Below, in pieces: positions 4,460 to 25,783 of a stretch of 64,000 bases of DNA (position 1 is the stretch's first letter; each line of letters starts with the position of its first letter). Origin of the DNA: Pirellulales bacterium (GTDB lineage Bacteria; Planctomycetota; Planctomycetia; Pirellulales; JACPPG01); assembly GCA_036490175.1 (NCBI GenBank), contig DASXEJ010000382.1, positions 1-64,000 on the forward strand, in the 5' to 3' direction. A model generated the notes under the pieces. The model did no database searches. It worked only from the letters and a program-made list of their open reading frames with translations, and was not told where the DNA came from. The translations under genes were made by a program, and so were the position numbers.

Positions 4460-4494
4460 TCGGCGTGCTCAAAATGCAGGCGACAGGCATTGAA

Positions 4495-6218: not shown

Positions 6219-6225
6219 GCAGCAC

Positions 6226-7596
6226 CTAAGATTGCCTGGCCAATGAAACACAAATGATTTCCTGATCGTTGCGGGCAAACACGCAACGGCGGGCAAAAGC
6301 CGGGTGCGACCACACTACTTCGCGGCCGCGGGCCGCGCTGTCGGGATCGAGCACGTGTGCCCGATCGATCTCCTCGTAGCCGGCCGGCGAGAGCGAGGCG
6401 AACAACAGGTTCCCCTGATCGTTGAACATCACATACCGCCCGTCCTGCGGCACAATGAATACCGTTCCGCAATCTGCCCTGCGGCCCGTGACTGCCGCGT
6501 AACTCTGCCAAAGCTGCTCTCCGGTGTCGACGCAAAAGCAACGTAGATCTCCCTGGTTGCCAACCGCGTAACCATATCCGTCCTTGAAAACCGGCGACGC
6601 CATGACGGCATGCGCGCCATCCGGGCGTGCCGCGTTGTTGCTGTTCCCTTTCCACACGATCGAGGTCTCATCCGCGGGCGAGACCTTTATCATCATCGGA
6701 CCGTGATAGAAGCTCGATATGAACAGCATATCGTCGATCTTCTTGACGGTGACGATGTTCACCGCCGGTCGCTGCGGCGGCACACCCTCAGGATAGGCAT
6801 GCGTCCAGAACTTGCGCCCCGTGGCGAGATCGAGCCCATAGAGCGCTTCGGAGAGCCAGATCACCAGTTGCCGCTTGCCGGCCAGTTCGTAAATCATTGG
6901 CGGGCTGTAGCCAATTTCATCGCTCGAAAGGGCCTTCCACACTTCCTCTCCCGAGTGTTTGTTCAGTGCCACGACGGCGCTACCTGCACCACCGACTGTG
7001 CAGTACAAAATATCTCCGTCGATCAACGGATGACCGGCGTAGCCCCAGACTGGCACTTCGGTCTTATAGGCGGTGGCCAGATTCTTCGACCAGCGAACCT
7101 TGCCGGTGTCGGCGGCGAAGCAGATCAAGTCGCCCATTGCGCCCAGCGTGTAGACACGATCGGCGTCGATCGTAGGTGTGGTGCGCGGCCCATTAGGGTA
7201 CGAAATCGTGTAGGGGCAATCGTACTCGTGCTTCCAAATCGCGTGGCCGTCGACGGCGCTTAAACAATGAACGCGTTCCTTGCCGAGAATGCCCTGCCGG
7301 GTAGCGCGAAGGCGTTGGCCCTGTTCGTCGGTGGCGCGCTCGAGGTCCATGACGTACACGCGGTCGCCAAAGACCGCGGGTCCGGCGTAGCCAATCCCCA
7401 GCGGGGCACGCCACAACACCTGCGGGCCACCGGCCGGAAACTTATCGAGCAGGTCGGCCTCATGCCATACGCCATCACGATGTGTGCCAAACCATTGCGG
7501 CCAGTCGGCCGCCGACGCCAATCGACTGCTCCCCAAACAGGCGATCGAGATAGACGTCAGTGAAATCAGATACGCGCGCCTCGCCAAGGTAAGCAT
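6226..7596 (-). CDS. Secreted PQQ-like beta-propeller repeat protein
   Basis: A 456-residue protein starting at ATG 7596, which is preceded by GGAGG with six bases spacing. The signal peptide (LISLTSISIACLGSSRLASA) is followed by ADWPQWFGTHRDGVW, a variant of the opening motif of the other propellers in the window. Blades include VHCLSAVDGHAIWKHEYD, ICFAADTGKVRWSKN, VALNKHSGEEVWKAL and RCFCVDTGEQLWQSY. It is more divergent from the copies at 1-492 and 1076-2365 than those are from each other. It is the first gene of a likely two-gene unit with the TIGR03067 protein. Ligand and role are unknown. Confidence 0.85.
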   Translation of the reverse strand: MLTLARRAYLISLTSISIACLGSSRLASAADWPQWFGTHRDGVWHEADLLDKFPAGGPQVLWRAPLGIGYAGPAVFGDRVYVMDLERATDEQGQRLRATRQGILGKERVHCLSAVDGHAIWKHEYDCPYTISYPNGPRTTPTIDADRVYTLGAMGDLICFAADTGKVRWSKNLATAYKTEVPVWGYAGHPLIDGDILYCTVGGAGSAVVALNKHSGEEVWKALSSDEIGYSPPMIYELAGKRQLVIWLSEALYGLDLATGRKFWTHAYPEGVPPQRPAVNIVTVKKIDDMLFISSFYHGPMMIKVSPADETSIVWKGNSNNAARPDGAHAVMASPVFKDGYGYAVGNQGDLRCFCVDTGEQLWQSYAAVTGRRADCGTVFIVPQDGRYVMFNDQGNLLFASLSPAGYEEIDRAHVLDPDSAARGREVVWSHPAFARRCVFARNDQEIICVSLARQS

Positions 7597-7746
7597 GAAC
7601 TGCCTCCACGCGAAAGGATCGAAACGCGAGCGGGCCACAGCATCAGTCAGAACCGCCTCGCTGGCCCAAGACAAATTCTGGCACGACTCAGGATATCCGC
7701 GCGATAGCAGAATTGCCACTAAATCCAGCACGCGTTTAACGTCAAC

Positions 7747-10083: not shown

Positions 10084-10270
10084 GGCAGCGAGTCCCCAGG
10101 AAGCAATGCGCTGTCGGTTGGCGGCGGAATAACTTCGCGGCCACCTACAGCAAGTGGCACCGGCGGTCGTCGGCGCTCAGAAATAGAAGAGTCACGTCAC
10201 GCCGAGCCGTGTTCCGTGGTCCCTTCGGTATGTGCCCGTACATCTTCGTTGCCGTGGGACCGGCTTGCAA

Positions 10271-10864
10271 TCAATCCGCGGCCGGGGCGTCGGCCAGCAT
10301 TTCGGCCAGCAGTTCCATGGGCAGACCGACGACGTTGGACTCGCTCCCCTGCTCGATGTGGACCCAATCGAGTCCGTCCTGATAGCCAAACGCTCCGGCC
10401 TTCCCCTCCCAGGCCCCAGTGGCGACGTACGCGGCGATCTTGTCAGGCGAAAGTGCGTCCATGCGCAGCGTCGTCTTGGCCACGCGCACGACCGGCTCTC
10501 CGGCGGGAACGCGCCAGATGCACAGCCCGCTATAGACGCAGTGACGCTTGCCTGACAGCAGCGTGAGCATGACCCGGGCATGATCTTCGTCCCGCGGCTT
10601 GCCCAAAACTTGGCCTTGGCATTCGGCCACGGTATCGCAAGCCACGATCAACGCCGGGCCGATACGGGTCGAAACATCGGCCGCCTTTTGATACGCCAGG
10701 CGCGCCACCAATTCGGGCGGCGATTCGCCACTGCAGACGCCGCATTCGGCCAGTTCGCTAGGCGCTACGACCTCGAAGTCGTAGCCCGCCTCGCCGAGCA
10801 ATTGCCGGCGGCGTGGCGAGCTGCTGGCAAGGATCAGTTTCGAGCGGTAAGTCGGCGTTGGCAT
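10271..10864 (-). CDS. maf: Maf-family nucleoside triphosphate pyrophosphatase
   Basis: A 197-residue protein of the usual family length. It begins LILASSSPRRRQLL, the Maf signature loop that holds the triphosphate, and contains VACDTVAECQGQVLGKP (catalytic Asp in the DTV motif), the KTTLRM strand, GKAGAFGYQ and SNVVGLPMELL near the C-terminus. Maf proteins hydrolyse non-canonical or specific NTPs (dTTP/UTP or modified nucleotides depending on subgroup) to monophosphates and act in the cytoplasm. GKAGAFGYQ matches the dTTP/UTP (YhdE-like) subgroup pattern more than the YceF one; this is a tentative reading. It stands alone, between the divergent pseudouridine synthase and the glycosidase-like gene. 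Confidence 0.9.
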   Translation of the reverse strand: MPTPTYRSKLILASSSPRRRQLLGEAGYDFEVVAPSELAECGVCSGESPPELVARLAYQKAADVSTRIGPALIVACDTVAECQGQVLGKPRDEDHARVMLTLLSGKRHCVYSGLCIWRVPAGEPVVRVAKTTLRMDALSPDKIAAYVATGAWEGKAGAFGYQDGLDWVHIEQGSESNVVGLPMELLAEMLADAPAAD

Positions 10865-11026
10865 GAGATAAGACGTATGGTCGGTTCTTGGCTAAATGCG
10901 GTTATCCCCGAAATGCCAGGGCGGCGCGGGTTTCCGCGACACGGTTCGTGACCACCGGCACTACCGGCATCGGGTCGCCCATTCTACGATTCATACGGTA
11001 TCCCCGACAACGCACCACGGCGCTCT

Positions 11027-11710
11027 ATGGCCAGCCCCACGATCGAAATCCTGTACGAGGACAATCACCTGTTGGTGATCAACAAGCCGGCCGGGTTGCC
11101 CACGATGGGAGTGACGGCCGACCGCGAAAGCCTGCTGGTCCGCGCCAAGGAATACATCAAGCAACGCTACCAGAAACCGGGCAACGTTTACCTGGGGGCC
11201 ATGAGCCGGCTGGACGCCCCGGTTTCGGGCGTGGTGCTTTTCGCCCGCACCTCGAAGGCCGCGGCACGGATGACGGAGCAGTTCAAAACGCGCACGGTCG
11301 ACAAGTTGTATTGGGCTCTGGTGGCTGGCGCCGTACAGCCACCTGCTGGACGACTGGTAGACCTCGTCCGTGCCGACGAGCGGCATCGTCGCATGCACCG
11401 GACAGCGCTGGCAGGTCCTGGCGTGCAGGAAGCGCGCTTGACGTACCGCAGCCTCGCTTGCCTGGCACCCGGAACGCTTTTGGAAGTCGAGCTGGAAACG
11501 GGCCGCAAACATCAGATCCGGCTGCAACTATCCGGCCAAGGTTGGCCGATTCTGGGCGATCGTAAATATGGTAGCCGGCAGGCATTTCCCGTAGGGATCG
11601 CCCTGCACAGCCGCCGGCTGACGTTCACGCATCCCACCCGCGACGAGTCGATCGAGTTGACGGCGCCGCTACCTGCGCCGTGGCTGAAGTATGGCGTCCG
11701 CGACCGTTAG
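11027..11710 (+). CDS. RluA-type RNA pseudouridine synthase
   Basis: A 227-residue cytoplasmic enzyme with the RluA/RsuA catalytic core and no S4 domain. It begins IEILYEDNHLLVINKPAGLPT (motif I), has the catalytic-Asp motif SRLDAPVSGVV (Asp63), and ends with ETGRKHQIRLQLSGQGWPILGD, the motif with the conserved Arg and the GD loop. The usual His of HRLD is Ser here; this is seen in some family members. The length and lack of an S4 domain resemble RluA/TruC-like proteins, but the target (rRNA or tRNA position) cannot be told from sequence. It precedes the Ser/Thr kinase gene by about 210 bases. Confidence 0.88.
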   Translation: MASPTIEILYEDNHLLVINKPAGLPTMGVTADRESLLVRAKEYIKQRYQKPGNVYLGAMSRLDAPVSGVVLFARTSKAAARMTEQFKTRTVDKLYWALVAGAVQPPAGRLVDLVRADERHRRMHRTALAGPGVQEARLTYRSLACLAPGTLLEVELETGRKHQIRLQLSGQGWPILGDRKYGSRQAFPVGIALHSRRLTFTHPTRDESIELTAPLPAPWLKYGVRDR

Positions 11711-11788
11711 GACCTTGCCGGATCCTACCTCGGCGGACTAAATCTGGCGACGGATCTACTGGCACTGATAGAATTTACGCTCGACTGA

Positions 11789-11818
11789 CTGCCAACACAC
11801 TCCCACAACGCGTATACT
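11789..11818 (+). promoter_or_regulatory. Candidate promoter for the Ser/Thr kinase gene
   Basis: TATACT (11813-11818) is a near-consensus -10. CTGCCA (11789-11794) is a four-of-six -35 with an 18-base spacer. It would give a leader of about 95 nt before the GTG start at 11920. Confidence 0.35.
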
Positions 11819-11919
11819 AGTGGGCAGCAATTCGGGGTAGAGGTATCGATCCCTTTTGCCCCCAGCAGGGTTGTACATGAGAGGATCGTAACAATTCGCC
11901 CCATTCTAGCGGCACGTTC

Positions 11920-13293
11920 GTGACTAGTGATTCCAAAAGCGTGTTTCAACAGGCGGCCTTGGCCAGTGCTCTGCTCACGCAAGAGGAGCTGGACGAAGCG
12001 ATCGGCGTACTGGCTGCCGGAAGCGCTGGAGATCTGACCGACGAGAAGTTGGCCACCAAGCTCGTCGAGCTAGGGCGACTGAATCGCTGGCAGGCCGAAC
12101 AACTGCGCATCGGCCAGCGCAAGTTCAACCTCGGCGACTACCACATCATCGACTCGATCGGCCAAGGGGGCATGGGGCAGGTGTTCAAGGCCGAACACGC
12201 CATGATGGGGCGGATCGTCGCCGTCAAGGTTTTGCCGCGCAGCAAGAGCACGCCCGAGGCCGTAGCAAGCTTCTTTCGCGAGATGCGCGCCCAATCGCAA
12301 TTGGATCATCAGAATCTGGTGCGCGCTTATCACGCCGGACACGACGGCAACGTGTACTTCCTGGTCACCGAATTCGTGCCGGGCACAGACCTGAGGCGAC
12401 TGATCCGCCGGCGCAGCAAGCTCAGCATGACCACCGCGGCTGTGATTATCGGACAAGCGGCCAATGGCCTGGCACATGCCCATAGCCGCGGCCTGATACA
12501 TCGCGACGTGAAGCCGGGCAATATCCTGGTTACGCCCGACGGTATTACCAAGGTCTCTGACCTGGGGTTGGCCGACTATTTCAGCGACGAAGTGCCCGCG
12601 GATGCCAAAGGGGGAAAAATCGTCGGCACAGCCGATTACCTGTCCCCCGAGCAAATCACGATGCCCGACCGGCTCACCGGCGCCAGCGACGTTTACTCGC
12701 TGGGATGCACTTTGTATTACGTGGTCACGGGCAAGGTGCCGTTCCCCGGTGGTACGACGCGCGACAAGGCTCGGGCGCATTGCCAATTGCCCCCAATCGA
12801 TCCGCGGCGATTCAACCCTGAGTTGAGCGACGATTTCGTGGAAGTCATCGCCGACATGATGGCCAAGCGCGTCGAAGAGCGAATTCCCACGGCCGAGGAA
12901 GTCGTGCAGCGGTTGGAACTCTGGAGCGGAGATTTCGAATCCGCGGCGCTGGAGATTCGCTCTAACGAACCGATCGCCCCTCCGGTAATGGCGCCGCCGC
13001 GTACACGTCCGATTCCGATTCAACTGCGGGATACGGAATCGAACTTCTTGATACAGCCCTTGCAAGAGTCGGGCGGTGCGGAGAGTCCCAGCCAGACATC
13101 GGTGGGTACGGCGCCGCTGGTAGCCATCGATCAAGAGACGATCCGAATGCTGGACCCGGAGCCACGCCTGCTGGGGTCGCGCAACGACCTGTCGACGCTC
13201 CCTTCCTGGCTGCGGTGGATGATGGTCGTCGCCGCCGTGGTCGCCGTGCTGGCGATCGTGGCTGTCATCGTAAGCGGCTTCTTGCCGCATTAG
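11920..13293 (+). CDS. Membrane-anchored Ser/Thr protein kinase with helical N-terminal module
   Basis: A 457-residue protein with a GTG start. Residues ~8-65 form a helical module (LLTQEELDEAI ... LVELGRLNRWQAEQL). The kinase domain (~73-340) has the Gly-rich loop GQGGMGQVF (81-89), Lys103 in AVKVLP, the catalytic loop HRDVKPGNIL (Asp196), DLG in place of DFG (214-216) and SPEQ (242-245). All catalytic residues are therefore present, so it should be an active Hanks-type kinase. After a Pro-rich linker, a single TM helix lies at ~434-453, only four residues before the end, so there is no sensor domain outside the membrane. It is convergent with the 13.3-20.8 kb block, one of whose proteins shares the N-terminal module. 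Substrates are unknown. Confidence 0.93.
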   Translation: MTSDSKSVFQQAALASALLTQEELDEAIGVLAAGSAGDLTDEKLATKLVELGRLNRWQAEQLRIGQRKFNLGDYHIIDSIGQGGMGQVFKAEHAMMGRIVAVKVLPRSKSTPEAVASFFREMRAQSQLDHQNLVRAYHAGHDGNVYFLVTEFVPGTDLRRLIRRRSKLSMTTAAVIIGQAANGLAHAHSRGLIHRDVKPGNILVTPDGITKVSDLGLADYFSDEVPADAKGGKIVGTADYLSPEQITMPDRLTGASDVYSLGCTLYYVVTGKVPFPGGTTRDKARAHCQLPPIDPRRFNPELSDDFVEVIADMMAKRVEERIPTAEEVVQRLELWSGDFESAALEIRSNEPIAPPVMAPPRTRPIPIQLRDTESNFLIQPLQESGGAESPSQTSVGTAPLVAIDQETIRMLDPEPRLLGSRNDLSTLPSWLRWMMVVAAVVAVLAIVAVIVSGFLPH

Positions 13294-13320
13294 CTAGCCA
13301 TCGCGCGTGTAGACCCACGT

Positions 13321-14778
13321 TCAGGAGCCGTCTTGCGCGGGCGGAGCCGCTTGCGCCGTTTCATCTCCGCCAAGTTCGCGCTCCAAACGATCGATTTGCC
13401 GTGAGTCGAGCGTGCGGTTGATCACGGTTTGCGTATCGTCGAACAGCTTGTCGATCTGGCGCTGGGTGCGGGGATCGCCGGTCGCGCGCCGCTGACGTTC
13501 GACAAGCAGCTGTCGGGTGAAGTCTTGTTGTGATCGCAGGCGGCGCAACTGCTCGAATAAGAGCTTGGCCTCTTGGGTCTTGCCGGCTTTCATCCGCGAA
13601 CGGACGCGCGACATTAGCACTTGCCGCCGCGCGATCGTATCGACCAGCTCCTCCTGAAATCCGGCGATCAACCCTTCGACTTGCAGACGCCGATTGTCGT
13701 CAGGCATTTGGGCAAGTACCACCGGCGCCAGACCCGGCAGCAATGGGAGCTTCGCCATGATCATTCCGCCGCTTTTCACCAGCAACACCCGCACGCCGCC
13801 GTCGCCGGGCGGAATACGCAGATCGCCCCGCGTGTCGGTCGCACCTAGCAACTGAGTTTCCTTCGAGTCGACAGGATGAGAGTAGACCTGATAACCAACA
13901 AGCGGCCGAGCTGCCTTGTCCGGAGTGCGCAGCTCTAACGTCGTGTCTCGGTCCGGAAGATGTACGAAGAGGGCCAACTGCTCGGTACTGCGGCGACGCC
14001 GGGTGGAGAGCGGCGCGCGCAATCCCGTGATCAGGCGGGCCATCACGTGCGATCCTTCGACGCTTTCACTGATTAGATACGTCCATTCGATCGGCAATAC
14101 TTTCGGCGCGCGACCTGCCCGTTCGGTCCGGCGCACCACCGGACGAAAGATGCTCTTCTCGGCAACCGTGGCGAGGGACGGATCGCGGGTTGGAACGGCG
14201 GCCGCACGCAGCTGCAGCGAGACCTTGTCCCCGGCCACATCTTCGACGCGTGCCAAGGGGGCAAAGGCCGCTAATAGAGTTTGAAAGATCGCATCGGCCA
14301 ATCGCGCGCGCTGATAGACGCGTGCCGACTGAGGGGCGCTGATGAGTTGCGCGCGTACGTCGAAATCACGAATCGCGACGTCGTACGTGCCCGCTTGGTA
14401 GTCCAAGCGTACCAACAGCACTTTGTCGAAGTCGTCGCTGGCGATCGTGGGCAGAATTTGCTCGGCCTTGAGTTCCTGGAAACCATACACAACGGCCTCA
14501 CGTACGGCAGGTGCCGCCACGGCGGCCGAAAACGTCCACCGCGCCCCCACCACGGCCCAGGCGCGGGCTTCGAGCGCCGCGGTGAGGTTCGTCGACACGT
14601 TGCCACACTGCTCAGCCGCGGGCGTGAATGCGATCACGGCGTGTACCCGGTAAGGCGTGAACTCCCACAATGTCTCGTCCGCGCTACAGGTCTGCGCGAG
14701 CAGGACAAGAAGTAGGAACGCAAGGCCCCACAACTTTTGCTTCCCGCATGCAACACTGGCCGGGCCACGATGGCTCAT
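13321..14778 (-). CDS. Secreted protein of unknown function, coupled to the solute-binding fusion gene
   Basis: A 485-residue protein. ATG 14778 overlaps the upstream stop codon by four bases (ATGA), indicating translational coupling. It has a signal peptide (LWGLAFLLLVLLAQTCSA, then DETLWEF). The first ~170 mature residues alternate strands and helices with no motif I recognise. The middle holds an IEWTYLI strand and a TDTRGDLRIPPGDGGVRVL segment that resembles a carboxypeptidase-regulatory-like beta-sandwich repeat. Residues ~370-470 are helical and highly charged (MSRVRSRMKAGKTQEAKLL, FEQLRRLRSQQDFT). It is the last gene of the block, and its only clue to function is its tight link to the fusion protein. 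Confidence 0.6.
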   Translation of the reverse strand: MSHRGPASVACGKQKLWGLAFLLLVLLAQTCSADETLWEFTPYRVHAVIAFTPAAEQCGNVSTNLTAALEARAWAVVGARWTFSAAVAAPAVREAVVYGFQELKAEQILPTIASDDFDKVLLVRLDYQAGTYDVAIRDFDVRAQLISAPQSARVYQRARLADAIFQTLLAAFAPLARVEDVAGDKVSLQLRAAAVPTRDPSLATVAEKSIFRPVVRRTERAGRAPKVLPIEWTYLISESVEGSHVMARLITGLRAPLSTRRRRSTEQLALFVHLPDRDTTLELRTPDKAARPLVGYQVYSHPVDSKETQLLGATDTRGDLRIPPGDGGVRVLLVKSGGMIMAKLPLLPGLAPVVLAQMPDDNRRLQVEGLIAGFQEELVDTIARRQVLMSRVRSRMKAGKTQEAKLLFEQLRRLRSQQDFTRQLLVERQRRATGDPRTQRQIDKLFDDTQTVINRTLDSRQIDRLERELGGDETAQAAPPAQDGS

Positions 14779-17147
14779 GGTTCCACCGCCGGCAGGGGAA
14801 CTTTGACCTGCCATTGCTCGATGCCCTGGTACAAGCTGGCCGGCTGCGTGGCGACGCCTGACAAGGAATCGTGGTGCGCATAATGCTCCGTCAGTTGCCA
14901 GAGTGGCACCACCGAAACCTCGTCGAACGTCAGGCGGTGCAAGTCGTGCAATGCCTGCCGCGCCTCGTTCCAGCCCGTCGCTGTTTCGACCTGGCGCAAG
15001 ACCACGCTCATGTATGTGCTGGGGCTGCCGATTAGCCCCCCGTCGCCAAACAGGCGCCTGGCTTGGACCAGCGGCTCTTCGATCGCCAGCTCCAGGTAGA
15101 GCAAATCGTCCCCTTCTGCCAACTGCGTCGGCTGACCGAGCGGGATCTCACGCAAGTTCACCGTAATGCTGATGGCTTCCAGATTTCTCTGGATGGCCTT
15201 GCAGGCGATCCGCGCCACGTCGTCCGCGGGATAGGCCAGTGTTAGCGCGGGCAATTCCTTGGGCGGATCCTTTTCGGTGACCGCGGCTGCGGCTACTTCA
15301 CGCAACGCCACCGCCGAAAGCGTCAATGCCAGCCGCGGCTCGTAAGAGCGCGGCGCGATCTCGTCGTCGTAGGCATAACCAGCCGGATCGCTCAACGCCG
15401 CGCCTTTGGAAAATGGCCCGCTCACCACCTCGCAACCGGGCACGACTTGCTTCTTGAGGATCTCGTCGGTGAGAATCTTGGGGCGATTGATCCCATAGAC
15501 CAGGGCTCGACGAAAGCCGCGTTGCCGCATGAAGCGGTTTGCAAGATTCGGCAACAGGCAATGCACCGTCGGCACGCAATATCTCTCGACAGAAACGCCG
15601 GCCGACGACTTCATCGAGCCGACTTGCCAGGGGTTCAAGCGGTCCACGGCCGTGATGACCCCCAACCGCAAAGCCTCGGCGGCGTCGGCACGCGTGGCGA
15701 ACAACTGTTCGATGACTCCCTGCGGTTCGGTCGTGGTGCGGGCGAAATACTCCTTGCCCGCCAGGAATGTCGTGCGCTCCGGCGACGAAGACTCGGCCAC
15801 ATACGGCACAACGGAAGGGGGCAGAAGGTGCGACTCCTGATCGCCTCCGACCAGCGGCACCGTCAAAAGCGCCGCAGGCGCCAACTGCGGCTCGTGAAAG
15901 TGGACTACCACGTTATTGACGCTGTGGACCTCGATGCTTTGGCATGCTTCGCCCCAGGCCGGCAGAAAATCTGGCCGGCCGCGCTGGGCCAGGGCCAGCA
16001 AGCGGCGCGCCACGTCGTAGCCCGACAGTAAGTCCCCCTGTCGCCAGACGATGTCCGGTCTGATATCGATTGCCATACCGCGGCCCAGGTCGGTTGCCTC
16101 CCAACGTCCCACGGGGCACAGGTATTCGCCGCCGTTGGCGCCGTAGCCGGTAAACTCGAACAGCTGTCGTGCGATCAAGCGGCGCGTCCGCCGCACCGAC
16201 CACTGAACCATGAACTCGTCGAGACCCGCTGAATATGGTGCCGTGACGCCCACGACGACATGCGGAAATGTGGCGAACGCTTCCTCGGCCAATTCCTTGC
16301 CCCCAGCGGCCTTGGGCCAAATGGCCATAGCGCGGCGCGCCAGCGATAGAGCCTGCTGCGGATTGCCGGCCGACAGGGCATCACGCCCGTCGGCGACAAC
16401 CTTCATGGCCCGCTCATTCATTTGGGCTTCGAATCGGGCGGCGGTCGTTCCCGCGGGAAACCGCGCGCGCATCTCCTTCACCAGCCGCCGCACCGACGTG
16501 TGATCCCCTGCGGCGACGTAATTGTCGATGAGCTTGCCGGTCGAGGCGGCCATCGCCGCCTCGAGCCCCGGTCGTTGCGGCTGCCGGTCGAAGAGCGTAC
16601 GCAACAGGACGAGCGCGTTTTCGTAGTTTCGCTTGCGTTGCCAATCCTTGGCTTCTTCGTACAAGTAGTCGGCAATCGCGTCGTCAAGACCGACCGCTTT
16701 GGGATATTCTCGCCGTAGAAAGGCGTAGAAATCCAGGGCTTCATTGAACTTGGCGGTTGCGACCAGCTTTTTGGCCTGTTCCAGAACCAGCTGATCGAAG
16801 GTTTTTACCTCAGCGATATCCTGCCATTGGACGTCGTACTCGTCATCCGAATCCTCAAAACGCCGGATGCGCAACTTGTCGCCACTACGGGGAGCTGCCG
16901 GAACCTTTCCACCCGGCAACGTCAGAGGAAGCACCTTGATCTGCGTCATGGCCGTGTCATTGAGGATGACCAGGTCGTAGGGCTCTTGCTCGTAAAAGGG
17001 ACCAGAGGGCTCCTTCTTCGCGGCGGGTTCATCGTCGGCAGCCCAGGCGCAGGGGCTGCCGATGGCCGCCAGTATCACCAGCGCCGCGAGCCAATGGCCG
17101 AGCAGACAGCGCGGTCCGTCGACCAGTTTTCGTGCGCAGCGTTCCAA
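14775..17147 (-). CDS. TPR-like region fused to family-5 extracellular solute-binding domain
   Basis: A 790-residue exported protein (signal peptide with core LAALVILAAIGSPCAWA). Residues ~45-300 are helical TPR-like repeats (FNEALDFYAFLRREYPKA, NYENALVLLRTLFDRQPQ, NPQQALSLARRAMAIWPKA). Residues ~305-785 match the SBP_bac_5 fold: IDIRPDIVWRQGDLLSGYDV is the usual 'substrate, wsdG, taeDV' segment, and FRRALVYGINRPKIL is the 'vRqAlayaiDR' helix. Ordinary members bind oligopeptides or nickel for an ABC importer and have no TPR part. No ABC permease or ATPase is nearby. It follows the 1202-residue propeller gene by 58 bases and is coupled to the next gene by a four-base overlap. The function may be binding or assembly rather than uptake; that is inference. 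Confidence 0.7.
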   Translation of the reverse strand: MERCARKLVDGPRCLLGHWLAALVILAAIGSPCAWAADDEPAAKKEPSGPFYEQEPYDLVILNDTAMTQIKVLPLTLPGGKVPAAPRSGDKLRIRRFEDSDDEYDVQWQDIAEVKTFDQLVLEQAKKLVATAKFNEALDFYAFLRREYPKAVGLDDAIADYLYEEAKDWQRKRNYENALVLLRTLFDRQPQRPGLEAAMAASTGKLIDNYVAAGDHTSVRRLVKEMRARFPAGTTAARFEAQMNERAMKVVADGRDALSAGNPQQALSLARRAMAIWPKAAGGKELAEEAFATFPHVVVGVTAPYSAGLDEFMVQWSVRRTRRLIARQLFEFTGYGANGGEYLCPVGRWEATDLGRGMAIDIRPDIVWRQGDLLSGYDVARRLLALAQRGRPDFLPAWGEACQSIEVHSVNNVVVHFHEPQLAPAALLTVPLVGGDQESHLLPPSVVPYVAESSSPERTTFLAGKEYFARTTTEPQGVIEQLFATRADAAEALRLGVITAVDRLNPWQVGSMKSSAGVSVERYCVPTVHCLLPNLANRFMRQRGFRRALVYGINRPKILTDEILKKQVVPGCEVVSGPFSKGAALSDPAGYAYDDEIAPRSYEPRLALTLSAVALREVAAAAVTEKDPPKELPALTLAYPADDVARIACKAIQRNLEAISITVNLREIPLGQPTQLAEGDDLLYLELAIEEPLVQARRLFGDGGLIGSPSTYMSVVLRQVETATGWNEARQALHDLHRLTFDEVSVVPLWQLTEHYAHHDSLSGVATQPASLYQGIEQWQVKVPLPAVEP

Positions 17148-17205
17148 ACCACAACTCCCCGACGGTAGGTTTTCTACGCGTTACTACATGTGTACAGTCG
17201 CTTCT

Positions 17206-20200
17206 CTATTTCGGCTCGGCAACCACGTACAACGTGCCGTCGCTACCGGCAAACAACAATCGATCGTGCCAACGCACCGGCCCCAGTGCGAGCGGTTGGC
17301 CGAGCGCGATTTCTGAAACGACCTTGCCCGTGTCAGGGGCTATTCGATAGACGCTGCCGGAATTCGAGCCCGCTACGATCTCGCCGCGCGATTCGAGAGG
17401 ACTGCCTATCACACCACCGTGCCCAAGCGGCACCTGCCATTTCAGTTCTCCCGTGCCGTCGACACAGGTCAATTGACCAGAGAGTGTCGCCACGAGCACA
17501 TAGTTGCCGACACGCGTCGGCCCCCACACGGCACGCGCATCCAGCGGCCAGTCCTTGGCCGGGGCCAGGTCGGGCAAGCGAAACGAGATCAAGCGATTTC
17601 CGCGATCGACGCCGTAAGCAAAGTTGCCAGCTGACGCCATCGTCGACACGAGCGGCACCGCCAATTCGACAGTCGCGGCCGCTTCGAGATGCGCCCGCGG
17701 CGCGTCGGCCACGGCCAGCAGGTACAACTTCGTCGCGCCGTCAGAGATCAATGCCTGCTTGTCGTCGAAAACGGCGGGCTCCGTCCAGGCGACGTCGACC
17801 CCCACTTCCACAATCGGCTGAAAAGGCTCGATCAGATTGCGCCCCGTGTCGGGATCGACCAGCAACACCTGCCCGATCTTGGCCGGCACCAATAGCCCCT
17901 CGCCAAAGGCAACAGGCTGGGCCGCCACGGCTTGACTGAGTGTCTTGCGCCGCAGCTTGTCATTGCTGGATCTTGGGTCGTAGATGAGCAATTCGCGGAG
18001 ATCCATCGGCGCGTCGGCGCGTGCCTGCGTGAAAACGCATCGACCATCGGGCAATTGCACGAGCGGTAGATCGGGTTGCAGATTGAATTTCTCGCTAATG
18101 GTGGCCGCGGGGGTATCCATCAGCTTGCGGTTGGCCAAACCGGCCGCAGGCACTTCGTACAAGGAACCGACGGCAGTCATGACAACCGCTTTGCTGGCAT
18201 CAGCGGTGACGATCGGCGGAGCGGCCAGCGGCACACCAAGCCGTGTTTCCCAAAACCGGCTGGCGTCGACGCCGTTAATCGCGCTCACCGAAGCGCCGGC
18301 CGTTCGCGGACTGCGCGTGACGAAGATCACGGCCGGGCCAACCACGGCAGGCGGGTGCAACACGACGGCCTGGTCGTCGTCGATCCACTTGGGCGCGAGC
18401 GCGCCACGGGAAGCCTGCACGTCGTAGCGAGTGAGGCCGTAGCCAGCCAACCACAGCTCGGAACCGCGCGCCGCCAAAAACGGCACGATCGGCGGTTTAT
18501 CATCGGGAGGTTTTTCGGCAAGCTTGGTCAGGATTTTGCCGCCGTCGGGCGCTCCCAACTCGATCGAATACAGTGCCCCGCGATCGGTTGCCACGATCAG
18601 TGCGCGGCCACTAACGACCGGCGACGAGAATACATGGCCGCGCAGCGGCATCTGGTCGACGGCTTTGAGTTTCAAGCCGTCTTCATCTGCCAACAGCACG
18701 CGCAATACGGAGTCCTCGGCGCCGCTGTTGACGACCAGTATCACGTAACGCCCCACCAGCAGCGGCGGCGCCGCGATGGTTTCCGGCTCGTGGCCCAAAT
18801 AAAATACTTCGCGGCATTCCCCATTTTCAGCCGCTAATACATATAGATTGGCGTACTCGGCCACCTGGTAATAAAGCCGCTCGCGAGGTTCGGCGATCGG
18901 CCCGACGCGCAAGGCTTGCGGCAATTGGATGTAGCCTCGCAATTCCCCCGTTTCGAGATCCATCACCAACAGCTTGCCCGCGCGGCTGGCCAGCAACACA
19001 CGGTCGCGCACGACGACGGGCGCCGCGTAATGTCCGCCGTCGATCTTTTGGCGCCAGCGCAGTTTGCCTGTGACGGCATCCACCAGTGCGATGCCCTCTT
19101 GCACGCTGTCGACCAACAGTGCCGCGGGACCAGCGGCCGTCTTGATGACCTGCGGCGCATGTTCCGTATCGAATCCCACGAACCGGCGCCAGCGCGGCTT
19201 GCCGGTTCGCGGCTCGATGCCGAAGACCGAACCGGAATCCAGAATGGTCATGGTCGGCGGATCGTCGATCGGTGCCGCGGCCCCTTTGGTGCTTGTCAGC
19301 GCGAGAGATGCCAATGTGAGCGAGGGCGCGTCGGTCACCTCAGCGGCGCGCGTTTCGGCGACAAATTTCACGCCGGCACGCTCACGCTCGGCGGCAGCCA
19401 CCATTTCGGCGATCAGTTTCGGATCGTCCGCCAGTTCCGGATACGACTGCAATAATTCACGACGTGTGGCGTAGACCGCCGGCAGCGTCCCCGCCTGGAT
19501 CGCTTCTTGCATCTTGCCGATCGCGGCGGCCAGCGCCTTATCGCGATCGAGCCGGCGGACGGTCATCGCCAGAGAAGCGGCGATGTCGCGCATCTGTTCG
19601 GCCGGTTGCAATGTGATGGGAACAAACTTATCGACGAGCGCCACCGCCTCGCGCGTTTGATCAACCAACGTGGCGCTCGGTTTGTCACGCGTTTGATTCG
19701 CCAAACCTTGGGCCAGCGCGAGCAAGATCGATGCCAGATCCGTCTGCGCCGACGGAAACTCGACTTCCGGCGAGATTTGATTCAGGGCCGTTTGCGTGGT
19801 TGCCAACGTTTTCGACCAGTCGCGCGCCCCTTCCGCGGCCTGACGCATCTCGGCCAGGCCGCGATGGACCTTGGCCACGCTCACCGAGCCATGTTTGGGA
19901 TACTTTTCGAGGAACTGGTCATACATCGAAATGGCTTGGACAAAGGAGCCCGACTTGTACGCTTCTTCGGCAAGCTCGAAGGATTGGTCGCCGGTCTGCC
20001 GTTTCATTACCCATAGCAACACGGCGCCCAACAGCAGCATGCCCACCAGCGTTCCCCCGCCAAGCAGCAACAAGGGAGAATCCCAGGAATTGCGCGGCCC
20101 GGCCATAGCCCGCCGCTTTTGGCGGCGTTCGGCCGCTGAGGCGCCGTCTGCGTCGGCGGCCGCGTGGCCCAGCAAATCGTCCACCTGGTCGGCCAACTCG

Positions 20201-20814
20201 GGAGCCGCGGGCGCCACTTCGTTACGCCATGTGCGGCGTTTCTTTGGAGGGGTCTTTTTTCCGGTCGGCGTTGGCGCCGCCGACTTCCGCGCGGGGGTCG
20301 ATCCGCCCGATGTGCGCGGCTGCAGTGGCGAAGAGAGCAGCGGATCCTCGTCCAGGGGAGCCAAGCCCAAATCGTCGTTCGCGGCCCGCGTTTCAGCCAG
20401 GCTGGCGCTCGGTCGCACGACCTTCTTCGGTGCCGCGGGAGACGGCGGAGGGGGGGGCGGCGGCAGCAGGTCCTCGTGTTCGTCCGGGACCACCTCCAGA
20501 TCGTCGGCCGCGGTCGGCTGTGGTCCGGCCGAGGCCCAAGGGACCGGCTTCGGCCTTGAAGGCTCCTCTTCGTCTAGAACCTCGAGTTCGTCGTCCGGCT
20601 CAACGTGCATCGTCACGCTGGGAGCCGCCGGCTGGGAGAGCAACCGAGCTCCCTGGGCCTTGGTCAGGTGCCCGTCTGTGACGAGTTGCCCAACGATCGC
20701 GGCGGGATCGAGCTTGCCCGCGCCGGTCGCCATCTGGCGCTGTAGCGCGGCGAGTACGTCGTCGGCGATGAGTCCGCTGCGCGCGAGCGCTTGGAGCAAC
20801 GATTCATTCGTCAT
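17206..20814 (-). CDS. Membrane protein: helical module, Pro-rich linker, TM helix and large PQQ-like propeller
   Basis: A 1202-residue protein. Residues 1-60 form a small helical module (LLQALARSGLI ... QLVTDGHLTKAQGARLL) that resembles the N-terminus of the kinase at 11920. Residues ~65-240 are a low-complexity acidic, Pro- and Lys-rich linker, including a run of eight or more prolines near 118-124. A single TM helix lies at ~248-270 (LLLLGGGTLVGMLLLGAVLL). Residues ~276-480 are helical TPR-like, and ~530-1202 are propeller blades (VFGIEPRTGKPRWRRF, VDAVTGKLRWRQKI, VMDLETGELRGYIQ, LLVDPDTGRNLI). The expected topology is N-terminus inside and propeller outside. It is followed closely by the solute-binding fusion gene. 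No start ambiguity. Confidence 0.75.
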   Translation of the reverse strand: MTNESLLQALARSGLIADDVLAALQRQMATGAGKLDPAAIVGQLVTDGHLTKAQGARLLSQPAAPSVTMHVEPDDELEVLDEEEPSRPKPVPWASAGPQPTAADDLEVVPDEHEDLLPPPPPPPSPAAPKKVVRPSASLAETRAANDDLGLAPLDEDPLLSSPLQPRTSGGSTPARKSAAPTPTGKKTPPKKRRTWRNEVAPAAPELADQVDDLLGHAAADADGASAAERRQKRRAMAGPRNSWDSPLLLLGGGTLVGMLLLGAVLLWVMKRQTGDQSFELAEEAYKSGSFVQAISMYDQFLEKYPKHGSVSVAKVHRGLAEMRQAAEGARDWSKTLATTQTALNQISPEVEFPSAQTDLASILLALAQGLANQTRDKPSATLVDQTREAVALVDKFVPITLQPAEQMRDIAASLAMTVRRLDRDKALAAAIGKMQEAIQAGTLPAVYATRRELLQSYPELADDPKLIAEMVAAAERERAGVKFVAETRAAEVTDAPSLTLASLALTSTKGAAAPIDDPPTMTILDSGSVFGIEPRTGKPRWRRFVGFDTEHAPQVIKTAAGPAALLVDSVQEGIALVDAVTGKLRWRQKIDGGHYAAPVVVRDRVLLASRAGKLLVMDLETGELRGYIQLPQALRVGPIAEPRERLYYQVAEYANLYVLAAENGECREVFYLGHEPETIAAPPLLVGRYVILVVNSGAEDSVLRVLLADEDGLKLKAVDQMPLRGHVFSSPVVSGRALIVATDRGALYSIELGAPDGGKILTKLAEKPPDDKPPIVPFLAARGSELWLAGYGLTRYDVQASRGALAPKWIDDDQAVVLHPPAVVGPAVIFVTRSPRTAGASVSAINGVDASRFWETRLGVPLAAPPIVTADASKAVVMTAVGSLYEVPAAGLANRKLMDTPAATISEKFNLQPDLPLVQLPDGRCVFTQARADAPMDLRELLIYDPRSSNDKLRRKTLSQAVAAQPVAFGEGLLVPAKIGQVLLVDPDTGRNLIEPFQPIVEVGVDVAWTEPAVFDDKQALISDGATKLYLLAVADAPRAHLEAAATVELAVPLVSTMASAGNFAYGVDRGNRLISFRLPDLAPAKDWPLDARAVWGPTRVGNYVLVATLSGQLTCVDGTGELKWQVPLGHGGVIGSPLESRGEIVAGSNSGSVYRIAPDTGKVVSEIALGQPLALGPVRWHDRLLFAGSDGTLYVVAEPK

Positions 20815-21015
20815 GATTGCATGTGCTACGCGGCGACGTGGCAGGCCCCTGCGGGGTGCCTGACGACTGCCTCACACAAATAGCCCGATCTGTTCCGGCC
20901 GCCGTGCCCGACTTGCGGGGCATACGACGACCATACGACGTGACAGTTTACGATCTTCCAGCCTAACAACTGGGCGGCCCGGTCACAAATTTTGACCGCC
21001 AAAACCGAGGGATTT

Positions 21016-21034
21016 TGGCTGCCGTTGGCAGCCA
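21016..21034. repeat. Perfect 8-bp inverted repeat after the 21045 stop codon
   Basis: TGGCTGCC, three-base loop GTT, then GGCAGCCA. It lies 11 bases beyond the stop of the minus-strand gene at 21045. Neither strand has a T-run after the stem, so it is not a standard intrinsic terminator; it could be an mRNA 3'-end stabiliser or a Rho-linked hairpin. Confidence 0.5.
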
Positions 21035-21044
21035 GAATGCCGCT

Positions 21045-21971
21045 TTAGTAATACGTCTGGTCGATGACGTAAAACACGAACTTCTGCCCGTCTGGTTTGA
21101 CACCGAAGCGGGTACGGCGAATGTCCTTGCTGGCGCGGTTTTTGAACTGTCGTTCGAGTGTAGCCAACTGGGACTCAATCTCCGGCGGCAGGAACTTGAA
21201 AACGGTGCGTCCCTCGGGATTGATGCCTGCGCGGTTCAACAGCTCCTGGTCGGCCTCGTCGAGGTCGCCCCGGCTCCAGGTCATGTATTTTCGGCCGTCG
21301 GCCGTCCGCTGCCCGGTGCGCGTGGCCGGCTTCGGCTGGGTCAACTTCGAGATATAGACAATCTCGTTGGCGCCGCCAAAAACGCCCAATTCGATGCCAA
21401 AGCCGTCGAGTTGCTTGGCATAGGTCTCGACGGTGTTTCCTGGCGGAAACCGTATCTCCCAGGCCGTTTGTCGCGCGGCACCGCCGCCAAATCCGCCACC
21501 GGTCCCCTTGGCCGGATGTTTTCCCGTCCCTTCGGACCGTCCCCCGGTACGAACGCCTTCACCGCGGGCAAATTGCATGTCGAAGCGGTCGAGACTTGCT
21601 TCACTGGAAACGGTGGCGTCGACAATTTCGGAAAGCGTGTCCGGAGTCTCGTCATCCATGATGTCGCTTTCGGCGGCAATCTCGCTCTCGGTGGGCGCCT
21701 CGATGTGCTGCCCTTCGGTGCCTACGCCGTTTTCGTAGCCGCCACCGCTGGCGAGCTCCTCCATTACCACCGGGACCGATTTCTCGAAGCGGAAGATCCC
21801 GCTCGACAGCCACGCCATGAGCAGACAGAACACACCACAGCCGACTAATACCAACAGCGATATAATCAGGCTGGCCGCATGATCGTAGGCCGACACCGCC
21901 AACGACGCGACCGGCGCCACGGGCGTGGTCTTGCGCAGCGGGCGAGATGGGCGGGCAGCCGTTTGCGACAC
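21045..21971 (-). CDS. Single-TM protein with Gly-rich linker, coupled to toroid/HEAT gene
   Basis: About 308 residues. Two GTG starts are possible: 21977 (overlapping the upstream stop as GTGA) and 21971, which has GGAAG six to seven bases upstream; I chose the latter. A TM helix (AASLIISLLVLVGCGVFCLLMAWL) lies near residues ~30-53. It is followed by an acidic stretch, a Gly-rich linker (GTGGGFGGGAARQ) and a C-terminal domain starting WEIRFPPGNTVETYAKQLDG and ending FYVIDQTYY. The layout (short cytoplasmic N-terminus, TM, flexible linker, compact outer domain) recalls TonB- or ExbD-like proteins, but I cannot assign it to either. Stop-start contact with the upstream gene strongly suggests joint function. 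Confidence 0.6.
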   Translation of the reverse strand: MSQTAARPSRPLRKTTPVAPVASLAVSAYDHAASLIISLLVLVGCGVFCLLMAWLSSGIFRFEKSVPVVMEELASGGGYENGVGTEGQHIEAPTESEIAAESDIMDDETPDTLSEIVDATVSSEASLDRFDMQFARGEGVRTGGRSEGTGKHPAKGTGGGFGGGAARQTAWEIRFPPGNTVETYAKQLDGFGIELGVFGGANEIVYISKLTQPKPATRTGQRTADGRKYMTWSRGDLDEADQELLNRAGINPEGRTVFKFLPPEIESQLATLERQFKNRASKDIRRTRFGVKPDGQKFVFYVIDQTYY

Positions 21972-21973
21972 GA

Positions 21974-23638
21974 TCACTCTTCCAGTTTCGCGTTGGGGCG
22001 AATCGACAAAAACCAGTTGCGCCACTTTCGTACGGCGCCCGCGCGACGCGCGGGAGTAATGCCTTCATTCTCGGCCGGGTTCGAGATTGTGCGCGTCATG
22101 AACTGCAGCGTCTCCTCGGCAGCCAGGAAGACTTCGTCATCTGGATCCGATAGCGCCGCGATAATAAGGGGCGCATTGTTCAGGTCACGGGTACGCCCCA
22201 AGGCGCGGACAGCCGCGGCGCGTGCCTCGGGTTCATCGCTGCCGGCCAGGCTGCGCAAACGTCCGGCCAAACGACCGAGTTCGACCGGCGGCGCGCGGTC
22301 CACTTTTTCTTCCAACCCCTCCACAGCCCGCAGGTAATCCGGATGCCCCGGATCTTCGATGGCGGCCAACAACTGCTCGGCGGGACCGGCCAAGGGCTTC
22401 TGCCGTACTTGCCCCATGCGCAACTCGATATCATTCCCCGAGGGCAATCCGCGGCCTGTAATCAGCGTTCCCGGCCCCAGGTGATGCACACGCTCGATGC
22501 TCTTCTGACTGGAGCGGAGCAGGAACAGGAGCGCAAAGCACGTGTCTGTGGAATTGCCTGTAGTACCCGACCAAGTGCCGTCGGGCAATGCGGTTTTAGT
22601 CAAATAGTACACACCGTCGTCATACCAATGCGATGGCTTGAAAGGCGCGCTCGATGACGCCTCGCGAAAACTCTGATAGCGTTCAAAAGCGTAGAGGTAA
22701 TAATGCACGTACTCGTTAGGATCAATCTTGTAATTGTCCTGCATCCACTTATCGCCGCGATCTAGCGCCTCTCCCAGGCGGGTCAAATTAACGCGTGTCA
22801 CGACTGCCGTGGGCACGGGCTGCTGAGGTGCGGGAGCTTTGCGAACACGTTGCAGGACGGAGGGAGTTCCTGCCTCATCGCGAGGTCCGCCGCGGCGATA
22901 TTTAAAGTGGTCAGCGCAGATATACAAACTTCCTAGACCGGCGCTGGCCATGCTATGGCGCACAAGCTGTTGGTCGACCAGCTTGTAGCTTCCTGGATCG
23001 GTACCCTGATAGCCCCAGGGGCCTTTGGGATCCTGCGTACGAATGAGCCATTCGGCGACCTTCTCCCAAGCTGCCTGCGGCGTCTTGAAGCCCGCCCGCT
23101 CTGCCTCCCAGAGGGCCAACACGCCGTATTGCGTCATCGAAGTGTCGCCCGTTTGACGCTCACGATAACCCCAGCCGCCGTGATCTTTCTGCATCGACAG
23201 TAGGTGATCGAGATAGGTCTGAATCTCGGGCTTCAACCCTTCGGGATCGAGTTCCACCAAGAAGATGGCACACAACCCCACGCTATACACATCGAGCGCT
23301 TCCAGGCTTGCTTTGCTGCCGGCGGCGCCGCGCACCGCTTCCAATGCCGAGCTGACTCCTGGGTGATCACGCTTCAAATCCGCCTTGAGCAGGGTCAGGC
23401 CGAACAAGGCCTTGGCGCCGACCCGCCCATCCGACGTTTTTTCAATGTAACTAATACCTTTTTTGATCAGCGCCTGGACCTCGGGGCTCTTGGGGGTGAA
23501 TGCCGCGCGTGCCGGCGCCACAATCCCCAGCAGGCACAGGGCAGACACCGCGACTATGCCAAGCGGCACAGCGCGGTACGGCATGTCGCTGCGCAGCGGC
23601 AGCAAGCCTGTCGCATTTCGAGAGACCGGCCAGTTCAT
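21974..23638 (-). CDS. Secreted alpha/alpha-toroid (prenyltransferase/squalene-oxidase-like repeat) protein with C-terminal HEAT-like repeats
   Basis: About 554 residues. Two starts are plausible: ATG 23638 (used here, with GGCGGA 11 bases upstream) and ATG 23584, which gives a more compact signal peptide (AVPLGIVAVSALCLLGIVAPARA). The main domain has repeated QxxxGxWGY-type motifs of the terpenoid-cyclase-like toroid: SMQKDHGGWGYRERQ, RTQDPKGPWGYQG and ALPDGTWSGTTGN. These folds in planctomycete exported proteins are not evidence of terpene synthesis: the DxDD or DDxx catalytic motifs are not seen. Residues ~450-530 (EARAAAVRALG, DPDDEVFLAAEETLQ) look like HEAT repeats. It overlaps or abuts the downstream TM-protein gene. 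Confidence 0.72.
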   Translation of the reverse strand: MNWPVSRNATGLLPLRSDMPYRAVPLGIVAVSALCLLGIVAPARAAFTPKSPEVQALIKKGISYIEKTSDGRVGAKALFGLTLLKADLKRDHPGVSSALEAVRGAAGSKASLEALDVYSVGLCAIFLVELDPEGLKPEIQTYLDHLLSMQKDHGGWGYRERQTGDTSMTQYGVLALWEAERAGFKTPQAAWEKVAEWLIRTQDPKGPWGYQGTDPGSYKLVDQQLVRHSMASAGLGSLYICADHFKYRRGGPRDEAGTPSVLQRVRKAPAPQQPVPTAVVTRVNLTRLGEALDRGDKWMQDNYKIDPNEYVHYYLYAFERYQSFREASSSAPFKPSHWYDDGVYYLTKTALPDGTWSGTTGNSTDTCFALLFLLRSSQKSIERVHHLGPGTLITGRGLPSGNDIELRMGQVRQKPLAGPAEQLLAAIEDPGHPDYLRAVEGLEEKVDRAPPVELGRLAGRLRSLAGSDEPEARAAAVRALGRTRDLNNAPLIIAALSDPDDEVFLAAEETLQFMTRTISNPAENEGITPARRAGAVRKWRNWFLSIRPNAKLEE

Positions 23639-23892
23639 TGATGTGAGTTCCGCCCACCCGCGACTCGCTCGCACCACACCTGTTCGCCAACGGCGAAGCC
23701 CGCAGGCACAATATCAATAGGCAAGCAGCAGATAGGGTTGCGCGCAATAGGAAAGCGCGCCCAAGCCTCAGAATTTGATCCTATCTGGGCGGCCCCGAGG
23801 GTGTCAAGAAATGGCTTGGGAGCGTCCAGGGCATGGCCGCCGGCTGTCCTGAAACCACCCCAGCCGCGTGGGACCGGAGTTCGGCTCGGCAA

Positions 23893-25566
23893 CTACTGCC
23901 GGCCAAAGCAGATGAGACACATATCGTCGCTTTGGGCGCGGTCGCCGACAAAGCTTTTGACGTCTGCGAGCAAAATTGCCCCCTGCTGCTGCACGCCCTT
24001 GGCGGCCGTTGCCAGATGATCGTGCAAGCGGGCCAGCCCGTACAAATCGTTGTTGGCGTTCATGGCCTCGCTAAAGCCGTCGGTGAACAAGGTCAACGAT
24101 TCGCTAGGCTTGAGCACCATTTCGAACTGCTGGTACTCGTAGTCGCCGGCAACTCCGAGGGGCACTCCGGCCGCATCGGAGCCGACCTCTTCCACGCGAC
24201 CGTCTGCGTGTCGCAGAAACGGCGCCATGTGACCACCGTTCACGAGGCATACCTCGTGTTTATTTGGATCGAGCACGGCGATCACGATGGTCACAAATCG
24301 GTCTTCCCAGCCGCTGGCGCTGAAGGCCGCGTTCAGGCGGTTCATAGCGCCTGCGGGCGTGGGCTCGCTGGCCAGGCAATAGCGGGCTTCGCTCGACAAC
24401 TTCGCGGTCAGCAACGCTGCCGAGATGCCCTTGCCAGACACATCGGCCAGAATCATGGCCAATCGTCCGCCGGACAACGGAACGTAGTCGAAGTAATCGC
24501 CACCAACCTGGTTGGCCGGCTCGTAGAAGTCGAAAAAGTCGTAGCCTTCGACCTTCGGCGGCGCGCTGGGCAAAAATCCTTGCTGCACCTTGTGGGCCAG
24601 CTGCAAGTCGCGCTCGAAGGCGTGTTGCCGCATGGCCGCGTCGTGCAGCTGTGCGTTCTCGAGCGCCCGCCCGGCCTGGCCCGCGACGTTGGCCAGCACG
24701 TCGAGGTCTTCTTGCTGAAAGCGACTGCGCTGATCCAGCGTGTCGATCTGAATGGCCCCCAGCGCTTTGCCGGTGCTATTGAGCAACGGCGCGCACATCA
24801 TCGATCGAATGCGAAAGTCGGCGATGCTCTGACTCGAATCGAAACGCGAGTCGCTGGCCGCATCGGCCGAGAGGATCGCCTCTTTACTTTGCATGACCTG
24901 GCTGACGATCGTGCGGCTGATGCGAATCATCTCCTCGGCGTCGGCTCGGCGATGCTTGACAGCCTTGGGAATCAGGGGCGCCTTATCGTTCTCTTGCAGG
25001 ACGATGAATCCTCGGTCGGCCTGCAAGAACACCTTGAACAAGCTGTCGAGAATCTTTGGCAGCACCTGATCGACCGAGATGGCCGAGCCCAGGTTATCGT
25101 TGATTTCGAGAATGGCCTTGAGCTTGGCCTCGGCATTGACGGTGTATCGCCCCGGCTCTTTCTTGCTCAGGTCGAGCTTGGACATCACGGTCGAGCCGGC
25201 CGAGGCGCCGGCGTCGTCCACCAACTCGGCTGACAGCCCCAAGGCGCCGTCGATGGTGCCCGATTGCCGCTGCGGCTGTTCGCGGCGGAAGGTAAACAGC
25301 AGATCGCAGATCTTGATGCGATCGTTGTCCTCCAGGCGACGTCGATCGTGTATCTGCTGCCCGTTGACGTAGGTGCCGTTGCGGCTCTTGAGGTCCTCTA
25401 GGTAATAGTCGGCTTCGATTTGCAGGATCTGGGCGTGCTGCCGGCTGACGGCCCCGATGTCGAGCACGATGTCGCAATCCGGATGTCGGCCAAGCACGGC
25501 CTTCTCCGCTTCGAGCGGAAACTGCTGACCGGGAGCCATCCCCTTGAGAACTTGTAGTACGGCCAT
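23893..25566 (-). CDS. FHA-GAF-PP2C (SpoIIE/RsbU-type) protein phosphatase
   Basis: A 557-residue cytoplasmic signalling protein. ATG 25566 puts the FHA domain at residues ~1-95 (LGRHPDCDIVLD, SRQHAQI, DLKSRNGTYVNG), which should bind phosphothreonine. A GAF domain follows (~145-300; FLQADRGFIVLQ ... SMMCAPLLNSTGKALGAIQI). The C-terminal PP2C/SpoIIE domain (~330-557) has VGGDYFDYVPL, MILADVSGKGISAAL, LFTDGFSEAMN and the final DDMCLICFG; the metal-binding Asp residues are all visible. In the family such phosphatases dephosphorylate anti-anti-sigma factors or other phosphoproteins. No STAS or anti-sigma gene lies nearby. It is 255 bases upstream of the toroid gene on the same strand, possibly linked to that block. 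Confidence 0.92.
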   Translation of the reverse strand: MAVLQVLKGMAPGQQFPLEAEKAVLGRHPDCDIVLDIGAVSRQHAQILQIEADYYLEDLKSRNGTYVNGQQIHDRRRLEDNDRIKICDLLFTFRREQPQRQSGTIDGALGLSAELVDDAGASAGSTVMSKLDLSKKEPGRYTVNAEAKLKAILEINDNLGSAISVDQVLPKILDSLFKVFLQADRGFIVLQENDKAPLIPKAVKHRRADAEEMIRISRTIVSQVMQSKEAILSADAASDSRFDSSQSIADFRIRSMMCAPLLNSTGKALGAIQIDTLDQRSRFQQEDLDVLANVAGQAGRALENAQLHDAAMRQHAFERDLQLAHKVQQGFLPSAPPKVEGYDFFDFYEPANQVGGDYFDYVPLSGGRLAMILADVSGKGISAALLTAKLSSEARYCLASEPTPAGAMNRLNAAFSASGWEDRFVTIVIAVLDPNKHEVCLVNGGHMAPFLRHADGRVEEVGSDAAGVPLGVAGDYEYQQFEMVLKPSESLTLFTDGFSEAMNANNDLYGLARLHDHLATAAKGVQQQGAILLADVKSFVGDRAQSDDMCLICFGRQ

Positions 25567-25783
25567 GGTGAGCAAGGGGCCAGAGCGATCTGGAAAATCT
25601 CGATCCGCGCAGGGGCCAAACAGCCACCCCGCGCGGCACGACACGGGGCCTAATGGCCCAGTTAGTGAGCGATTCTACGCCTTGCCAGCGCAGGGCGTCA
25701 ACGGGCCAAGAAATGGTAATATCTGGAGACGCGGTAATACGTAATGTGAATGCACCCTACTTCCAACACAACGAAAGAAGAAC

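Follow-up and report, generated by a model that had tools for sequence, protein, structure and literature searches.

A conserved Pirellulales gene module that probably encodes an Exb-motor-driven trans-envelope machine

Results

The window, by which we mean the whole 64,000-nucleotide stretch of Pirellulales DNA analysed here, carries on its minus strand five genes, A to E, that probably represent five of the eight genes of a Tol/Ton-like trans-envelope machine driven by the proton-motive force (PMF) and equipped with a sensor arm. By gene order and sequence relationship, an ExbB and two ExbD-type proteins, encoded elsewhere in this genus, belong to the same conserved gene set. All five reading frames are open (Table 1), and an ORF check together with Pfam/NCBIfam searches bore out what an earlier note on this DNA had claimed for the coordinates, domains and both flanking genes. 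D and E overlap by 40 nt, and A and B by 52 nt given the GTG start of B used here; the true start of B may lie further downstream. Upstream of A, at 23807-23778, a sigma-70-type scan picked out one site resembling a promoter, but the total number of sites was at chance level.

The hydrophobic N-termini of A, D and E suggest that these proteins are exported. B and C each contain one long hydrophobic helix with positive residues ahead of it (judged by eye), from which the large domains of both are expected outside the cytoplasm.

Table 1 Features of the module region in window coordinates.
Feature	Position	Strand	Description
Convergent Ser/Thr kinase adjoining E	11920..13293	+	Pkinase, E 1.8e-53 (Pfam)
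Gene E	13321..14814	-	497 aa; exported, FlgT/TolB-like fold, Ig/CnaB-like beta region, C-terminal helices (predicted)
E N-terminal alpha/beta domain, residues 55-202	14209..14652	-	Putative FlgT/TolB-like part, assigned by inference (Foldseek without residue ranges)
Gene D	14775..17147	-	790 aa; exported (predicted), TPR-like region and SBP_bac_5
Gene C	17206..20814	-	1202 aa; N-terminal adaptor domain, TM helix, TPR-like stretch, PQQ/BamB-type propeller region
C propeller region, residues 527-1200	17215..19236	-	PQQ_2, E 2e-20; predicted outside inner membrane
C N-terminal domain, residues 1-62	20629..20814	-	Domain preceding the kinase in kinase-bearing C
B-C gap	20815..21044	.	Site of ExbB, ExbD and zinc-ribbon ExbD in most relatives; empty in window
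Gene B	21045..22025	-	326 aa; predicted force-transducer-like protein
B globular C-terminal domain, residues 185-325	21051..21473	-	AF2 model
B transmembrane helix, residues 46-77	21795..21890	-	Type-1 motif xYD[RH]xAS at its start
Gene A	21974..23677	-	567 aa; exported (predicted) toroid and HEAT
FHA-GAF-SpoIIE phosphatase, upstream of A	23893..25644	- (same strand as A)	Pfam

Gene order among relatives

We read gene strings by a profile scan of all ORFs in each locus. The commonest string among loci with B, C or D was A-B-ExbB-ExbD-zinc-ribbon ExbD-C-D-E (36 relative loci), followed by A-B-C-D-E without the motor (12 loci, the window among them), a few loci being counted twice where both the C- and the A-based fetches had reached the same genome. 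The remaining strings were mostly one of these two orders shortened by contig or locus ends. Fetching by C or by A led to the same gene order in many families of Pirellulales, an order of budding planctomycetes. C alone matched in 35/58 genomes, and D adjoins C wherever a C-fetched locus extends past C (one, L004, ends with its contig). A is the first gene of the module in relatives; a scan of the whole collection with its profile returned 80 named loci, nearly all titled planctomycetes and including the isolates Bythopirellula polymerisocia, Blastopirellula marina DSM 3645, Lacipirellula limnantheis, Adhaeretor mobilis and Aeoliella straminimaris, with about 20 of the 80 holding an A relative and no other module genes. 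The profile of B matched 118 of 197 Pirellulales genomes and, in a sample of the phylum, 21 of 294 genomes, all belonging to Pirellulales or to one family of the same class.

Read from these sequences, the conserved gene order is not chance. The earlier note had proposed one coherent undescribed envelope system, to be checked by gene-order conservation in Planctomycetota; the order A-B-...-C-D-E is indeed kept, the genes are not scattered in relatives, and the proposal is thereby supported. Its five-gene set is real and conserved but incomplete, since the ExbB-ExbD-ExbD trio that lies between B and C in most relatives had been missed. We found no earlier description of the module in the literature on ExbB/TolQ in Planctomycetes or ExbB in Pirellulales.

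The motor trio and its relocation

Pfam searches of the B-C gap of relatives identified ExbB (PF01618, E 1.6e-25) and two ExbD proteins (PF02472, 1e-15 to 1e-23), the second of which bears an N-terminal zinc-ribbon-like stretch in several relatives. The gap is also empty in the other members of the window's genus seen. A search of the window's own genome revealed five ExbB-family loci, and the trio itself on contig C384 (L069:5772-7696), where the proteins match the ExbB, ExbD and ExbD families of the module. The C384 ExbB nests within the module's ExbB clade as sister of that of genome G018 (support 100/99), and in both ExbDs the TM motif retains its Asp (DLVFML / DIVFFL). Module-type ExbB scores about 300-330 bits, other ExbBs below 100. 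In 5/5 genomes of the genus the module-type ExbB lies on a contig other than that of C, which on sequence grounds makes the relocation older than the genus.

The occurrence of B and ExbB track each other in the genomes tested, and module-type ExbB was present in 0/15 B-less genomes. One genome with a motorless cluster (G048) encodes a module-type ExbB elsewhere. The genome search returned none in G037, G040 and G052, in which A-B-C-D-E is present, so the five genes can occur together in the absence of this motor or with a different one; the lack in these three is either a real gap in the argument, missing sequence, or a sign of another motor. As for the broad class of Exb/Tol-type PMF motors, the system contains ExbB/TolQ and ExbD/TolR genes, the conserved Asp of the ExbD helix and, in the AF2 model of B, a single-TM transducer with a long linker and a folded C-domain.

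In the window's genome, a kinase-WD40 protein of 1203 aa (L069:2082-5693) is convergent with the detached trio. On contig C363 (L070, 7262-10703), another toroid (A-like) gene directly adjoins an ExbB-ExbD pair, so that Exb motors in these bacteria may have toroid proteins as a recurring partner. Separately, anti-phage defence by a Zorya-like Exb/Mot system was rejected: PADLOC gave no match for A-E or the trio, and only generic kinase models on kinase-bearing C.

Gene B, a candidate force transducer

The AF2 model of B (pLDDT 74.1 overall; alignments for the models of B and E were built from the fetched relative loci) comprises a helix, a disordered linker of ~105 residues and a C-domain with pLDDT >90. 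The predicted layout, with a short N-terminus, TM helix, linker and globular C-domain, is TonB/TolA-like, and the next gene after B in relatives is ExbB. The earlier note had called B a TM linker; a TM segment and a linker are present in the model, but the protein is better read as a TonB/TolA-like transducer. Searches of Pfam, PDB sequences and Foldseek assigned B to no family, and its C-domain has no PDB match (best Foldseek E 0.097).

Type-1 B proteins carry xYDRxAS in place of the S-x3-H motif of TonB/TolA type. By the strict pattern, 63 B proteins with a motor have the type-1 motif and 11 do not, two of the latter being second-type proteins with S-x3-H. The S-x3-H motif occurs in the TM region of seven B proteins from six second-type loci (the second copy L033 of the window's genome, L066, L188, L189, L191 and L193), with ExbB adjacent. 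Many B homologues of motorless loci lack the motor-type anchor; classed by eye, their N-termini show a lipobox in L064 and L089, a signal-peptide-like sequence in L187, L192, L194 and L196, and a plain TM segment in L063, L065, L077, L190 and L195. L044 (G040) keeps the type-1 motif though it has no motor. Neither the S-x3-H motif nor the anchor classes had been predicted beforehand; both emerged on inspection of the sequences. Five loci (L109, L076, L079, L107, L136) contain two tandem B genes within the module, which suggests two transducers on one motor.

The second module copy in the window's genome (L033, contig C22, about 1786-18004) is divergent. Its C protein, of 1598 aa, contains a Ser/Thr kinase, and the copy also has ExbB, a pair of ExbD-type genes and a B with S-x3-H. 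Additional genes separate C from D, among them those for a TPR protein and for a PD40-propeller protein, and downstream lies a gene of multihaem cytochrome-like type.

Gene C and its kinases

C combines a PQQ_2/BamB-like propeller with a YfiO/TPR-like stretch (Pfam/NCBIfam). The C of the window has no kinase match in Pfam and retains the N-terminal adaptor domain. An HMM of this domain matched C-kinase fusions with E 1.9e-12 to 3.2e-8 and, weakly, five standalone kinases (8e-5 to 0.03); BLASTP of the domain against the neighbouring kinase gave 0.008. At L188, a separate kinase gene stands directly ahead of C.

These links bear on a different reading of the module, in which C (with a kinase or a kinase-docking domain) and the ligand sensor D would form the core of a receptor-signalling system, the motor, A, B and E being accessory or serving ligand transport. 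The fusion of C to a Ser/Thr kinase, seen in family f2 and again in the second module copy of the window's genome, is consistent with this, as are C-D adjacency, the tightest link in the module, the three genomes without module-type motor, and a weak NCBIfam match to AfsK, a kinase with a PQQ-like propeller. We nevertheless consider it quite unlikely: most type-1 C proteins have no kinase, yet the motor is kept next door, and the shared occurrence of B and ExbB also speaks against it.

The note had further taken the layout, with its flanking signalling genes, to suggest a membrane-spanning assembly controlled by phosphorylation. Both genes are present in the window. The FHA phosphatase adjoins the module only within the window's genus, in the window itself, L034 and L035, and a further locus of that genus, L036, yielded no such gene; genus-only among the loci examined, it was rejected as a core part. 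The convergent kinase arrangement recurs beside E in 14/31 loci with room, making this kinase a frequent neighbour and a putative member. From the fusions, kinase signalling is tied to C; control of the module by phosphorylation is plausible given these fusions and the shared N-terminal domain, but the support is indirect.

At L118, L101 and L122, a large PQQ-propeller/TPR protein (at L118, 1551 aa and without a kinase match) is paired with a short toroid protein; the two lie upstream, at about 2600-8700, and are encoded on the opposite strand. This pair is possibly a related system.

Genes A, D and E

A shows a weak squalene-cyclase-type toroid (about residues 60-400) followed by HEAT repeats (about 436-524) in Pfam/NCBIfam searches, and its family alignment A3 contains 37 invariant columns. 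We read its hydrophobic N-terminus as a Sec signal.

D contains an SBP_bac_5 domain (Pfam, residues 349-670) with E 1.3e-15, and with E 4e-38 in the second copy. On this basis, D could bind an oligopeptide-like ligand whose import the Exb motor would energise, as in TonB-dependent uptake, with which ExbB/ExbD are classically tied. Such a nutrient-uptake role appears very unlikely, as there is neither a TonB-dependent receptor nor an ABC permease among the module genes, the window's own genome has no Pfam match to TonB_C (PF03544) and a single receptor barrel, on another contig, and the C-domain of B is not TonB-like by Foldseek.

E has no significant sequence family, and sequence profiles find neither TolB nor FlgT. 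Its AF2 model (pLDDT 88.8) gave Foldseek matches to FlgT (3w1e, E 5.1e-9), TolB (7mx5, 1.3e-6) and CnaB2 (8bdw, 2.7e-3), with FlgT, an LPHT ring (8z5n) and TolB in the top ranks and CnaB/pilin Ig folds lower. Whole-chain TM-scores were low, about 0.2, and the predicted likeness to FlgT/TolB is therefore at most domain-level. Exb/Tol-type motors power gliding in other phyla, and FlgT, to which E shows a likeness, belongs to the flagellar H ring, so that a motor for gliding or surface motility, of the AglRQS-Glt or GldLM kind, was also weighed. We regard it as highly improbable: the five genes include no Agl/Glt/Gld homologue by Pfam and NCBIfam, and these organisms are not generally known to glide.

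Discussion

For the preferred reading, a PMF-driven machine with a sensor arm, we propose the following working model. ExbB and the two ExbD proteins would form an inner-membrane motor on which B docks through its TM helix, and the motion would be carried through the flexible linker to the globular C-domain. This domain would engage partners, for which A, E and the outer portion of C are candidates, so that a proton-driven motor in the inner membrane would pull on outer envelope parts. The membrane-anchored propeller protein C, which in some orthologues is joined to a Ser/Thr kinase, would together with the binding protein D constitute a sensing arm, either reporting to the machine or gating it. 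There is no outer-membrane partner (Pal-like or receptor) among the module genes.

The machine might serve to couple or constrict the envelope, to take up substances or to move the cell over surfaces; Tol-like envelope coupling is our first guess, offered tentatively. A bolder version, which we hold to be unlikely, is a dedicated Pirellulales force-and-signal machine in which a proton-driven Exb motor and its transducer are coupled to a receptor-kinase propeller and which would, in these FtsZ-less dividers, do the envelope-coupling work that falls to Tol-Pal in other bacteria. Planctomycetes have no recognizable FtsZ (PMC5147048) and a largely reduced Tol-Pal set (PMC8871954). For the coupling and shaping of their two membranes, the conserved and probably PMF-driven module, with its signalling arm, is a concrete candidate. 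Furthermore, the split of the motor from the cluster, the TonB-like motif in second-type copies and the frequent anchor loss among motorless B proteins are natural experiments on transducer-motor coupling.

Comparison with known systems

The module resembles Tol-Pal (TolQ-TolR-TolA-TolB-Pal-CpoB) in its clustered genes with a motor of the ExbB/TolQ and ExbD/TolR families, B as a single-TM transducer-like protein whose linker leads to a C-domain, a propeller protein, TPR-containing parts and the FlgT/TolB-like fold predicted for E. Unlike Tol-Pal, the module genes include no Pal/OmpA-type lipoprotein, the propeller is predicted to be anchored in the inner membrane with a kinase or adaptor N-terminus, there are two ExbD proteins and extra toroid/HEAT and SBP_5 proteins, and the C-domain of B has no match among PDB structures. 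TolB_N (PF04052) had no match in the window's own genome; the matches of E are to TolB/FlgT structures. The module shares with TonB-ExbB-ExbD the motor family and, in second-type B, the S-x3-H helix motif, but it has no receptor and its type-1 B uses the YDRxAS motif. With neither TolB_N nor TonB_C matched by Pfam in the window's own genome, we do not assign the module to Tol-Pal or to TonB.

AfsK-type receptor kinases join a kinase and a propeller in one chain, as do the C proteins found in family f2 and in the second module copy, whereas the C of the window is kinase-less, has TPR and partner genes, and is embedded in an Exb motor module.

For the PVC group, Planctomycetes among them, transducers with vWA domains beside Tol-type motors have been described (PMC12204202, Mol Biol Evol 2025), and further such transducer systems are expected still to be discovered (PMC12204202). 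That system likewise has a tolQ-like gene, a pair of tolR-like genes and a transducer with TM segment, linker and non-TonB C-domain. Neither Pfam nor Foldseek matched a vWA domain in B, and the gene set of the present module differs in its toroid/HEAT protein, receptor propeller, SBP_5 protein and E. The module appears to be an undescribed eight-gene machine, kept together across Pirellulales.
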